Shown piece after piece: positions 36,048-39,999 of a stretch of DNA of 55,483 bases. The notes under the pieces were generated by a model, which saw nothing but the letters and a program-made list of their open reading frames with translations, was not told the DNA's origin and did no database searches. The DNA is from Candidatus Nitrosocosmicus sp. (GTDB lineage: Archaea > Thermoproteota > Nitrososphaeria > Nitrososphaerales > Nitrososphaeraceae): assembly GCA_031177355.1 (NCBI GenBank), contig JAPSGR010000008.1, positions 1 to 55,483 of the forward strand. Direction: 5' to 3'. The position numbers and the translations under genes are program-made. Within the stretch, counting starts at the first letter, position 1, and each line of letters opens with the position of its first letter.

Positions 36048-36713
36048 TTAGAATTTAAGATCTGGATGGTCTTTTTCTAATTTCTTCCAATCTGCCGAAA
36101 ATAGATCAAGGCCTTTATCGGTTAATGGATGTCTAATCATCTTGTCGAGAATATCTGGTGGAAGCGTAACCACATCTGCGCCCATTTTTGCGGACTCTAT
36201 TACATGAAGGGGATGTCGTACACTTGCCACCAGAACCTGAGTAGAAATATCATAACTTGCAAAAATTTGAACTATTTCGCTAACAAGATTTAGCCCTTCA
36301 CTTCCTATATCATCCAATCTGCCTATAAACGGGCTTACATATGTGGCACCAGCTTTAGCTGCAAGCAACGCCTGATTTGCCGAAAAAATCAATGTAACAT
36401 TTGTCTTTATACCTTTGTCGCTTAAAGATTTAACGACCTTAAGTCCATCCATAGTCATAGGAACCTTTACAACCACATTTTCTCCATACTTTGCAAGTTT
36501 TAGTGCTTCATCCATCATCTGGTCAAATGTATCAGCGACTATTTCTAAGCTAACAGGTCCCTTTACAAATTCGACTATTTTTTTCATAACCACTATGGGA
36601 TTACCTTTTTCTTTTGAAAGTAATGTAGGGTTGGTTGTAATGCCATCAATAACCCCCATTTCGTTGTACTTTACAATAGAATCCAGATTGGCGGTATCTA
36701 AAAATATCTTCAT
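36048..36713 (-). CDS. tal: transaldolase (small, TalC/FSA-like)
   Basis: A 221-residue transaldolase of the short class. It has KIFLDTANLDSIVKYNEMGVIDGITTNPTLLSKE, the Schiff-base lysine region NVVVKVPMT, NVTLIFSANQALLAAKAGATYVSPFIGRLDD and VLVASVRHPLHV. It exchanges three-carbon units in the non-oxidative pentose phosphate pathway, or acts as a fructose-6-phosphate aldolase. The start overlaps the transketolase C-half stop by 4 bases, so it is the last gene of that operon. Confidence 0.92.
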   Translation of the reverse strand: MKIFLDTANLDSIVKYNEMGVIDGITTNPTLLSKEKGNPIVVMKKIVEFVKGPVSLEIVADTFDQMMDEALKLAKYGENVVVKVPMTMDGLKVVKSLSDKGIKTNVTLIFSANQALLAAKAGATYVSPFIGRLDDIGSEGLNLVSEIVQIFASYDISTQVLVASVRHPLHVIESAKMGADVVTLPPDILDKMIRHPLTDKGLDLFSADWKKLEKDHPDLKF

Positions 36714-37678
36714 TTCTTGTCCCTTTTCTTTAATTCTAAAGCGTTCCTTACTATTTCTTTCGGAGACAGTCCATATTTATCTAATAGAGAATCTATTTCC
36801 TCGTCTCTTGCGGATTCTCCGAATTTATCTCTAATACCAATTTTTTTTACAAACGTAGGGCAAATCTCAGATGTAACCTCAGAAATAGCAGAACCTAGAC
36901 CGCCTACAATATTGTGTTCTTCAACAGACAATAAGGAACCGGTTTCCTTTGTGCATTTATAAATCAAGTCAGAATCAATTGGCTTTATTGAATACATATC
37001 AATAACTCGGCAAGAAATATCATGATCCTTTTTTAACATATCACTTGCCTTTTGGGATGCAGAAACCATTGTTCCACAAGCAAACAAGCTCAAATCGGCA
37101 CCATCTGTTACTACCTTCCCTTTACCTATTTCAAAATCTGAATCTTCCATATGAATCTCTTCCGTAGAGGGCCTCGCCAGTCTAACATAAAAAGGCCCAG
37201 GAATTTGTACAATTTTTTCCAAGAGCTTTTTCACCGAAGGTGCATCTGCTGGAACAAGGACTCTCATATTAGGCAAAGATCTCATTATAGAAATGTCTTC
37301 AATTTGTTGGTGGGATGCCCCATCTGGACCAACAGACAAACCTGCGTGAGAAACAACTATTTTTACATCAAGATTTGGATAGCATATTGCATTCCTTATT
37401 TGGTCTAGACATCGACCAGGAATAAAAGCTGCGTAAGTGCTTGCAAAGGATATTTTTCCTGCTATCGCAAGTCCGGCCGCAATTGAGACTAAGTTTGCCT
37501 CAGCGATACCTACGTTAAATAACCTTTCAGGAAATTTCTCACCAAATTTCTTGGTTTTAAGAGAATCAGTAGTGTCACCACCAACACATACAATGTTAGA
37601 ATATTTTTGACCCAAGTTTACAAGAGCGTCGCCATATGCAGACCTCATATCAGAGAAACGAATTTCATTAGCGTTCAA
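36710..37678 (-). CDS. tktB: transketolase C-terminal subunit
   Basis: The 322-residue second half of a split transketolase, containing the pyrimidine-binding and C-terminal domains: MRSAYGDALVNLGQKYSNIVCVGGDT, FNVGIAEANLVSIAAGLAIAG, THE conserved catalytic region VGPDGASHQQIEDISIMRSLPNM, and VEEHNIVGGLGSAI. It must pair with the N-terminal half, which here is the fusion protein encoded 92 bases upstream on the same strand. It is coupled to transaldolase by an ATGA overlap. Confidence 0.93.
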   Translation of the reverse strand: MNANEIRFSDMRSAYGDALVNLGQKYSNIVCVGGDTTDSLKTKKFGEKFPERLFNVGIAEANLVSIAAGLAIAGKISFASTYAAFIPGRCLDQIRNAICYPNLDVKIVVSHAGLSVGPDGASHQQIEDISIMRSLPNMRVLVPADAPSVKKLLEKIVQIPGPFYVRLARPSTEEIHMEDSDFEIGKGKVVTDGADLSLFACGTMVSASQKASDMLKKDHDISCRVIDMYSIKPIDSDLIYKCTKETGSLLSVEEHNIVGGLGSAISEVTSEICPTFVKKIGIRDKFGESARDEEIDSLLDKYGLSPKEIVRNALELKKRDKK

Positions 37679-37770: not shown

Positions 37771-39420
37771 CTAAACACCTTTGATCTCCAGACGATCCAA
37801 TATACTTTTTCTGCCCTTAATCCAATCTTCTTGAATATTTAATTCTCGAGATTTGTCAAGTAATGTCTGTTCTAAATGTAAATCAATCTTAAGTTTAGCC
37901 TCAGAAATATTCTTTTCTACATCATTTGAACCAAAAATTGCATTTCCCATCACAAATATTCTACAACCTGCGTCATAGCAGCTTATTAAGGTAGATTGAT
38001 CAATCCCTCCGTCAGCTTCTATGTATCCTTTGTAACCATGTTCTCTCAACGTTGGTATTAACGCACTCATTTTAGGTAACACTTCTGGAATAAACTTTTG
38101 GCCAGCAAAACCAGGATTCACGGACATAATAATCAGGACATCAAGATTGTCTAAATGTGAAAAAATCCAATCAGGTAGATTAGTTGATGGATTTATAGCC
38201 AGTCCGGGACTCACACCAGCAGAAATTAGCTTTGAAGACATGTCTTCAAATTCTTTTTCACTGTCGCATACTTCGGCATGTAATGTAATAATATCACATC
38301 CCGCATCTATGTACGAGTCAAGGTCCGAACCTGGATTTCGGATCATCAAATGAGTATCAAACGGAAGTCGGGAAATTCCTCTTAGATTCTTTATTATATC
38401 AAAAGAAAAGGTAGTGTTTGGAACAAATTTGCCGTCCATTACGTCCAGGTGGATCATTTCTGCACCATATTTTTCTGCCAGTTCAATCTTTTGTATCAAG
38501 CTTTTCTCTTCTATTCCCGTAGCACCTGCTATTATAGAAGGCGATATCATATACTCTCCTTCCAGTTCTTCGATTAACAATGGTAAATGTTTTTTTGATG
38601 GAGCTTTTCCATGCCATTGGGGATTATTAGCCATGTGTTTTATACCGTTTCCCTTTATGGTATTTGCAATGATGATTTTGGGTTTTCCTTTAGGCCTATT
38701 TAAGAGCTCTGGTATTATTTGCTCTAATTTGTGACCATTAATTTCTACAACGTCCCAATTAAAGGAACTCCATTTTTCTCTAATCGGATCTATAGGCATG
38801 ATGTCCTCTGTAAAGCCGTCTTGCTGTATTTTGTTTCTATCCAATATAGCTACCAAGTTGTCAAGTTTAAATTTTGCAGCAGCCATCGAAGCCTCCCAGA
38901 CCTGCCCCTCGTTCGTTTCTCCATCACCCAAAAGGCAATACACCGTATTTTCTTGTTTATCCAACCTATTGGCCAAACATACACCTATAGATACAGATAG
39001 ACCAATGCCTTCCGAACCACCTGAATATTCAATACCCGGAACGCTATGGTGTTTTTGAAGTTCACTATACCTAACAGGATGTCCCTGAAGTCTCGATTCT
39101 AGTTTTCTTAAAGTCTTTATTTCCTCTTTTGGAAAAGATCCTGCTAATGACAATGTTGCATAATATCCGGGTGCAGAGTGAGCCTTTGAATTAATAAAAT
39201 AATCTCTATGTCGCAAATTGGGATTAGCAATATCTATATTCATTATTTGAAAATAGAGTGAACCCATTATTTCAGCTGCAGAAAAAGAGGCACCTGGATG
39301 TCCAGATCCGGCTTCTGCGATACCGGTCAAGGCCAATATACGAACTTCCTTAATTTTTTCTTTTAATCTCAAATATCTATTTACAAAGTACATTTTGCCG
39401 TCCTCACAAAACCGAACCAT
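37771..39420 (-). CDS. transketolase N-subunit fused to ribulose-5-phosphate 3-epimerase
   Basis: A single frame of about 550 residues joins two enzymes. The first 290 residues are the thiamine-diphosphate half of transketolase (AEAGSGHPGASFSAAEIMGSL; cofactor site GDGETNEGQVWEASMAA ending ILDRN; NTIKGNG). The second part, from ISPSIIAG, is a complete epimerase: HLDVMDGKFVPN, DTHLMI, VNPGFAGQKF and EADGGID. About 35 extra residues follow. At the joint lies an in-frame ATG (38548-38550) preceded by GGAGAG, so the epimerase might also be made alone. Starts at 39426 (TTG), 39420 (ATG) or 39393 (ATG) are possible. Confidence 0.92.
   Translation of the reverse strand: MVRFCEDGKMYFVNRYLRLKEKIKEVRILALTGIAEAGSGHPGASFSAAEIMGSLYFQIMNIDIANPNLRHRDYFINSKAHSAPGYYATLSLAGSFPKEEIKTLRKLESRLQGHPVRYSELQKHHSVPGIEYSGGSEGIGLSVSIGVCLANRLDKQENTVYCLLGDGETNEGQVWEASMAAAKFKLDNLVAILDRNKIQQDGFTEDIMPIDPIREKWSSFNWDVVEINGHKLEQIIPELLNRPKGKPKIIIANTIKGNGIKHMANNPQWHGKAPSKKHLPLLIEELEGEYMISPSIIAGATGIEEKSLIQKIELAEKYGAEMIHLDVMDGKFVPNTTFSFDIIKNLRGISRLPFDTHLMIRNPGSDLDSYIDAGCDIITLHAEVCDSEKEFEDMSSKLISAGVSPGLAINPSTNLPDWIFSHLDNLDVLIIMSVNPGFAGQKFIPEVLPKMSALIPTLREHGYKGYIEADGGIDQSTLISCYDAGCRIFVMGNAIFGSNDVEKNISEAKLKIDLHLEQTLLDKSRELNIQEDWIKGRKSILDRLEIKGV
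38548..38559 (-). promoter_or_regulatory. possible internal ribosome-binding site and start for the epimerase
   Basis: On the minus strand GGAGAGTATATG occurs exactly where the transketolase part ends and the epimerase begins. GGAG matches a Shine-Dalgarno core and ATG is the natural epimerase start. It is in frame, so both a fusion and a free epimerase could be produced. Confidence 0.4.
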
Positions 39421-39509
39421 TCCCAATCCATCCTCAACTTACACATTTTACAATACACTGATCTTTCATTCACAAATAGATAAAAAGGTAACTTCACCCA
39501 GCTCATAAT

Positions 39510-39842
39510 TTAAGTGGTATGCCCAAGACTAGACAATATCGATTCTAAATCCCTCTGGGCCAGCCCCACCCCCATCTTAGCATCTTTTCTAGCCAATATT
39601 GAGCCATTTGAAAATGCAATCATAGTTGGAACCGCGTTGACTTTGAATCTGTCCCATAGTGGGTTATCATCCTCATTTAACTTTACACCACCTGCAAGAA
39701 TACTTGAATCTAATTGTTCTATAGATTGAGAAAATGAGTTAATAAAACTTTTACAATATCCGCACCAATCGGCATAAAATAACAGCAGCGATTTCGGACT
39801 AGATATAACAGAATCAATCTCGCCGGGCAAAAAATCCTTCAT
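39510..39842 (-). CDS. thioredoxin-like protein
   Basis: About 110 residues with the redox motif WCGYC in LLLFYADWCGYCKSF, cis-proline region NAVPTMIAFSNG, and the usual thioredoxin strand order. The ATG at 39840-39842 (MKDFLPGE) is preferred over one six codons upstream. It lies 89 bases before the transketolase fusion on the same strand and may share its transcript. The active site WCGYC differs from the classic WCGPC, so its redox potential may differ. Confidence 0.88.
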   Translation of the reverse strand: MKDFLPGEIDSVISSPKSLLLFYADWCGYCKSFINSFSQSIEQLDSSILAGGVKLNEDDNPLWDRFKVNAVPTMIAFSNGSILARKDAKMGVGLAQRDLESILSSLGHTT

Positions 39843-39999
39843 ATTGATTAATAAAAACAAGCAGTAAAAAATTGTTTCTATTTAAAAGTATGCATGTGTA
39901 TAAATTAAATTAAATTATTTGATTTTCGCTCAAGCGATATTAAGCGTCGGCTTACTTTTTGCCTGTTTTCTGATACAAGTATTATATATAAATGTGTAC

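Follow-up and report, generated by a model that had tools for sequence, protein, structure and literature searches.

Organization of the tktN-rpe locus

The window, i.e. the whole analyzed stretch of 55,483 nt from Candidatus Nitrosocosmicus sp., contains on its minus strand a single open reading frame (positions 37771-39426; 551 codons and a stop codon) encoding the N-terminal half of a transketolase (TktN) and a ribulose-phosphate 3-epimerase (Rpe), with no internal stop between them. The long reading of this frame begins with TTG. Since homology to related proteins starts at approximately Met12 (codon 39391-39393), this residue is probably the native start, which would give a protein of about 540 aa. 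The two domains recognized in the product are (i) the thiamine-diphosphate-binding domain of the transketolase N-half (residues 23-275; 38602-39360, minus strand; PF00456, E 2.1e-40) and (ii) the epimerase barrel (residues 294-498; 37933-38547, minus strand; PF00834, E 2.5e-50), which covers positions 2-198 of the 198 positions of the Pfam model and scores 171.1 bits against a cut-off of 21.1. The epimerase half falls below the cut-off of the NCBIfam equivalog model for rpe, TIGR01163 (188.2 versus 212.6 bits), and passes that of the subfamily model NF004076, ribulose-phosphate 3-epimerase (191.3 versus 165); we therefore use the name Rpe at the level of the subfamily and not of the equivalog. 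The closest named relatives of the fused protein, sharing 74-85% identity, belong to Candidatus Nitrosocosmicus. In the genome of origin (97% complete) there is a single match each to the whole fused protein, to PF00456 and to PF00834.

The fused gene is followed on the same strand by tktC (36710-37678), encoding the C-terminal half of transketolase, with the pyrimidine-binding and C-terminal domains (PF02779, PF02780). Its best match in the PDB is 6yaj, the C-terminal chain of a split transketolase (E 5.4e-92). The locus thus has the layout of a split-chain enzyme, with the TPP-binding half in the fused gene and the pyrimidine-binding half in an adjacent, separate one. Next comes a gene of the transaldolase/fructose-6-phosphate aldolase family (FSA/TalC type; 36048-36713, minus strand), whose product scores above the cut-off for both PF00923 and TIGR00875. 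It overlaps tktC by 4 nt, and gene maps of related loci place tal beside tktC in most cases. An earlier note, made from the letters of this DNA, had given exactly the coordinates 37771-39426 (the strand was not stated) and had read the frame as a transketolase N-half and a complete epimerase, followed by the C-half and transaldolase; the domain matches confirm this reading and gene order. The fused gene is immediately preceded, on its own strand, by an ORF for a thioredoxin-like protein (39510-39860), which stays beside it in several Nitrosocosmicus-type loci.

Active sites and predicted structure

The predicted model of the fusion (544 residues) has a pTM of 0.87 and a mean pLDDT of 83.8. A Foldseek search with the two halves gave as best matches 6yak for TktN and 2fli for the epimerase (TM-score 0.93), and the top 50 PDB matches listed included no TktN-Rpe fusion. 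Chain AAA of 6yak, the N-terminal component of a split-chain transketolase, is also the best PDB sequence match of TktN.

In all 41 aligned fusions, TktN residues His43, His83, His116, Asp168, Glu173, Asn198 and His272 are invariant, as are epimerase residues His326, Asp328, Met330, His359, Met361 and Asp472. The metal and acid-base motifs of the epimerase (H-x-D-x-M, H-x-M and D-G-G) are likewise present and invariant in the 41 sequences. Roles in the binding of TPP, Mg or another metal and substrate, and in catalysis, are assigned to these residues on the assumption that they correspond to those of E. coli transketolase and of solved epimerases. As judged from these sequence features, the gene very probably encodes a bifunctional alpha subunit, composed of a TktN half and a complete, catalytically competent Rpe.

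The protein ends in a helical tail (approximately residues 515-551; 37774-37884, minus strand) that is confined to the fused clade. Counted from the DGG motif, the fused proteins extend for 80-90 residues to the C-terminus, the unfused epimerases for 47-69. The tail contains an invariant Trp and an invariant Leu, has predicted helices and gives no Pfam match above the cut-off. It might conceivably dock on TktC or form oligomers.

Two further length differences were observed within TktN. The proteins of Nitrososphaeraceae carry about 8 extra residues (the VRYSELQKHH region) just after His116, corresponding to approximately 39051-39085 in the window; this insert is of low confidence in the predicted model. 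The proteins of the second fusion-bearing family (f2, see below) are devoid of it, and in most of them about 20 additional residues occur farther along the chain, in the EELIGDDISEMW region.

Conservation of the fusion

Named genomes of Nitrososphaeraceae, among them Nitrosocosmicus and Nitrososphaera, contain the whole query as one frame. In the samples of the phylum and the class, the fused frame occurs in two families: that of the window (f1, which is Nitrososphaeraceae, as judged from its named members) and f2, which we take to be Nitrosopumilaceae, judging by the size and number of its genomes and by its kinship. The best-scoring 150 epimerase matches of the class sample comprise 107 in genomes of f1 and f2 and 43 elsewhere. 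Of the former, 106 have a frame of 490-628 aa that includes the epimerase; the exception (G709) has a short frame located 95 bases from the end of its contig. Every listed f1 or f2 genome whose contig reaches both domains thus carries them in one frame (106 of 106), with no case of fission. The 43 other listed genomes, of families f3 (presumably Nitrosocaldaceae, on the same grounds), f4, f67, f69 and f74, contain unfused frames of 222-304 aa.

The fusion is therefore real. The earlier note had considered that close relatives might possess two separate genes, joined in the window by a sequencing error. This has been ruled out, since the close relatives are all fused and two genes occur only in other families. 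Such an error, in sequencing or in assembly, or the recent loss of a stop codon in one strain, would be facilitated by the arrangement in the unfused families, where tktN and rpe overlap or nearly touch and, for some of the pairs, one altered base would be enough to join them. However, the fusion recurs in many independent assemblies, including single-contig ones, which rules out chance and misassembly; among the listed genomes of the two families, all that are not truncated are fused, and the joint between the domains is of identical length in 66 loci. Moreover, where the overlap has the form ATGA the two genes lie in different frames, and simple stop loss is insufficient there. We consider this explanation practically inconceivable, and a missed stop is likewise ruled out by the conservation.

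Joint between the two domains

The joint comprises the 20 residues from the WHG motif to [VI][AS]PSII (38548-38607, minus strand), and leads from the C-terminal helix of TktN into the first strand of the epimerase barrel. All 66 fused loci tested have a joint of exactly 20 residues, with no change in length despite a sequence divergence of about 50%. In the predicted model (alignment numbering) a helix spans residues 271-282 and the strand 286-290 begins three residues further on, the pLDDT of this block being 86-94. The constant length, together with the predicted helix and strand, suggests a short, stiff joint and not a floppy linker.

The joint might also serve for the production of a second protein, a free epimerase initiated internally at residue 293 and made alongside the full-length fusion. 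The codon at this position is ATG, GTG or TTG in 46 of the 66 fused loci, including that of the window, where the ATG is preceded, at a distance of about 3 nt, by a GGAGAG sequence. Against this, the remaining 20 loci have no start codon at residue 293, and, since the bases upstream of it also code for conserved amino acids, their richness in purines could be fortuitous. A dual product of this kind is very improbable, and obligatory internal initiation at the joint was rejected because the start codon is not conserved.

Origin of the fusion

Five other families (f3, f4, f59, f67 and f74) possess separate tktN, rpe and tktC genes in that order, in most cases followed by tal. In f3, f59 and f67 the stop codon of tktN and a possible start codon of rpe overlap by 4 nt, as ATGA or TTGA, and in f4 and f74 candidate rpe starts are located 1-45 nt downstream of the tktN stop.

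In phylogenetic trees the fused sequences form one clade, with a support of 99 for TktN and 97 for Rpe, and with a support of 100/100 in the combined TktN+Rpe+TktC tree, where the clade was recovered in 200 of 200 bootstrap trees. In the Rpe tree and the combined tree this clade adjoins f3 and f67. Lateral acquisition and multiple fusions within f1 and f2 were ruled out, since a single clade was obtained in every tree. The single clade and the overlapping genes of the same order in sister families point to one fusion that arose from a pre-existing operon with coupled genes. The sequences place this event in the ancestor shared by f1 (Nitrososphaeraceae) and f2 (presumably Nitrosopumilaceae). 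The fusion is ancient, and its likely precursor is represented by the separate genes of the same order that survive in the sister families: a tktN-rpe-tktC-tal operon whose first two genes overlap or nearly touch.

Reverse-order fusion and other transketolase arrangements

Two genomes of genus g64 (family f5, outside the order of the window; G321 and G328) encode the same pair of enzymes in the opposite order, in a single 537-538-aa frame where the epimerase occupies residues 8-196 and TktN approximately 268-520 (L082:2596-4212 and L083:2684-4297, both on the minus strand). In both loci the fused gene is followed by tktC and tal. The two Rpe-TktN proteins are 83% identical and retain the key motifs; a match spanning both halves was detected in no other genome among the 163 of the order to which g64 belongs. 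In the trees, long branches separate both halves from the f1/f2 clade, so that Rpe-TktN is recognized, from its sequence, as a fusion that arose independently, with the domains the other way round.

Some further arrangements of transketolase genes were observed. One f2 genome with the fusion (G303, contig C32, locus L086) contains an additional, unfused tktN and tktC pair (41% and 36% identity), and two genomes of the same genus (G180 and G342) gave two matches each. Single-chain transketolases of 612-640 aa are encoded in loci L099-L103 and L105-L109 (mostly of family f14), within an order that otherwise has split ones.

Pathway context

The genome of origin contains one gene for RpiA and one for FBP aldolase/phosphatase; being about 97% complete, the assembly could lack another gene of the pathway. 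A search of this genome detected no match to G6PD_C (PF02781) or 6PGD (PF00393), nor was hexulose-phosphate synthase found, the single gene of the OMPdecase family being nearest to PyrF. This gene content, considered together with established biochemistry, indicates that in a gluconeogenic autotroph such as this the net flux probably starts at fructose 6-phosphate, which transketolase uses to make xylulose 5-phosphate; the epimerase would then convert the latter to ribulose 5-phosphate. With fructose 6-phosphate as its starting point, the non-oxidative pentose phosphate pathway would yield both ribose 5-phosphate and erythrose 4-phosphate, and the epimerase would act on the xylulose 5-phosphate made by transketolase. 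The earlier note had linked the two enzymes through this metabolite, with the epimerase feeding transketolase. The shared metabolite stands, and the direction is probably the reverse in this organism, given that G6PD, 6PGD and hexulose-phosphate synthase were not found. A published study of soil ammonia oxidizers (PMC11131427) likewise links the expression of transketolase with the gluconeogenic FBP aldolase/phosphatase.

Comparison with known systems

The fusion is not new. It was published in 2024 as a Tkt(N)-Rpe fusion, cluster 341.1, present in 73 of 98 Thaumarchaeota assemblies (PMC11237513, mSystems 2024, e00948-23). The gene of the window shows no difference in kind from cluster 341.1 as described there, with the same pair of enzymes joined in one polypeptide and a host of the Thaumarchaeota (Nitrososphaerota). 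The accessible text of that article was found to contain no description of four features that the present analysis adds: (i) the precursor with overlapping genes, (ii) the joint of fixed length, which is probably rigid, (iii) the C-terminal helical tail confined to the fused clade and (iv) the fusion in reverse order. The same article cites the archaeal Hps-Phi fusion, in which two consecutive sugar-phosphate enzymes of archaeal ribose synthesis are likewise joined, although the enzymes and the pathway (reverse RuMP) are different from those of TktN-Rpe.

The N and C subunits of the split-chain transketolase of Carboxydothermus hydrogenoformans (6yak and 6yaj) match TktN and TktC of the window, with 44% identity between 6yak and TktN in the structural match. 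Unlike TktN of the window, the N subunit of C. hydrogenoformans carries no epimerase. 6yak has been described as an active alpha2beta2 heterotetramer. Stand-alone Rpe proteins (2fli and 1rpx) have the complete barrel and the catalytic residues, as in the window, but are neither preceded by TktN nor followed by a helical tail.

Possible role of the fusion

By analogy with 6yak, the fused alpha subunit would pair with the separate TktC (beta) to form a transketolase of the alpha2beta2 type carrying epimerase barrels. We infer that the most likely benefit of such an arrangement is a fixed 1:1 dosage of the two enzymes and their co-localization.

Alternatively, the fusion may be neutral, a frozen accident that befell overlapping genes and fixed the dosage with no kinetic advantage. 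The genes already lay side by side and overlapped before they were joined, and one event accounts for every case in f1 and f2. Nevertheless, none of the 106 listed genomes shows fission, the length of the joint is maintained across a divergence of about 50%, the tail is specific to the clade, and the same pair of enzymes was fused independently, in reverse order, in the two g64 genomes. We regard a frozen accident as a substantial possibility, albeit with chances short of even.

True channeling, i.e. the movement of xylulose 5-phosphate between the active sites without equilibration with the bulk solvent, is unlikely. In its favor, one enzyme uses what the other makes, the joint is short, probably rigid and invariant in length, and a convergent fusion exists. 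However, the predicted model lacks TktC, on which the transketolase site depends, and shows neither a tunnel nor facing active sites. The g64 proteins support selection for joining the two enzymes, but their different geometry, with a longer linker of approximately 60-70 residues, counts against one precise channel.

Besides the benefit in dosage and co-localization, we tentatively propose, as a rather speculative extension, that archaea have undergone selection for the covalent tethering of the epimerase to TktN on two or more occasions, with the domains in opposite orders. In f1 and f2 the fixed joint, and a tail docking on a partner such as TktC, might hold a rigid complex that steers xylulose 5-phosphate to ribose.

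The fusion is common to two widespread families of ammonia-oxidizing archaea and sits in the only ribose route found in the genome from which the window derives. The passage from overlapping genes to a fusion with a tail, together with the fusion in the opposite order, constitutes a good natural test of whether fusions of enzymes are selected for tethering or simply become frozen.
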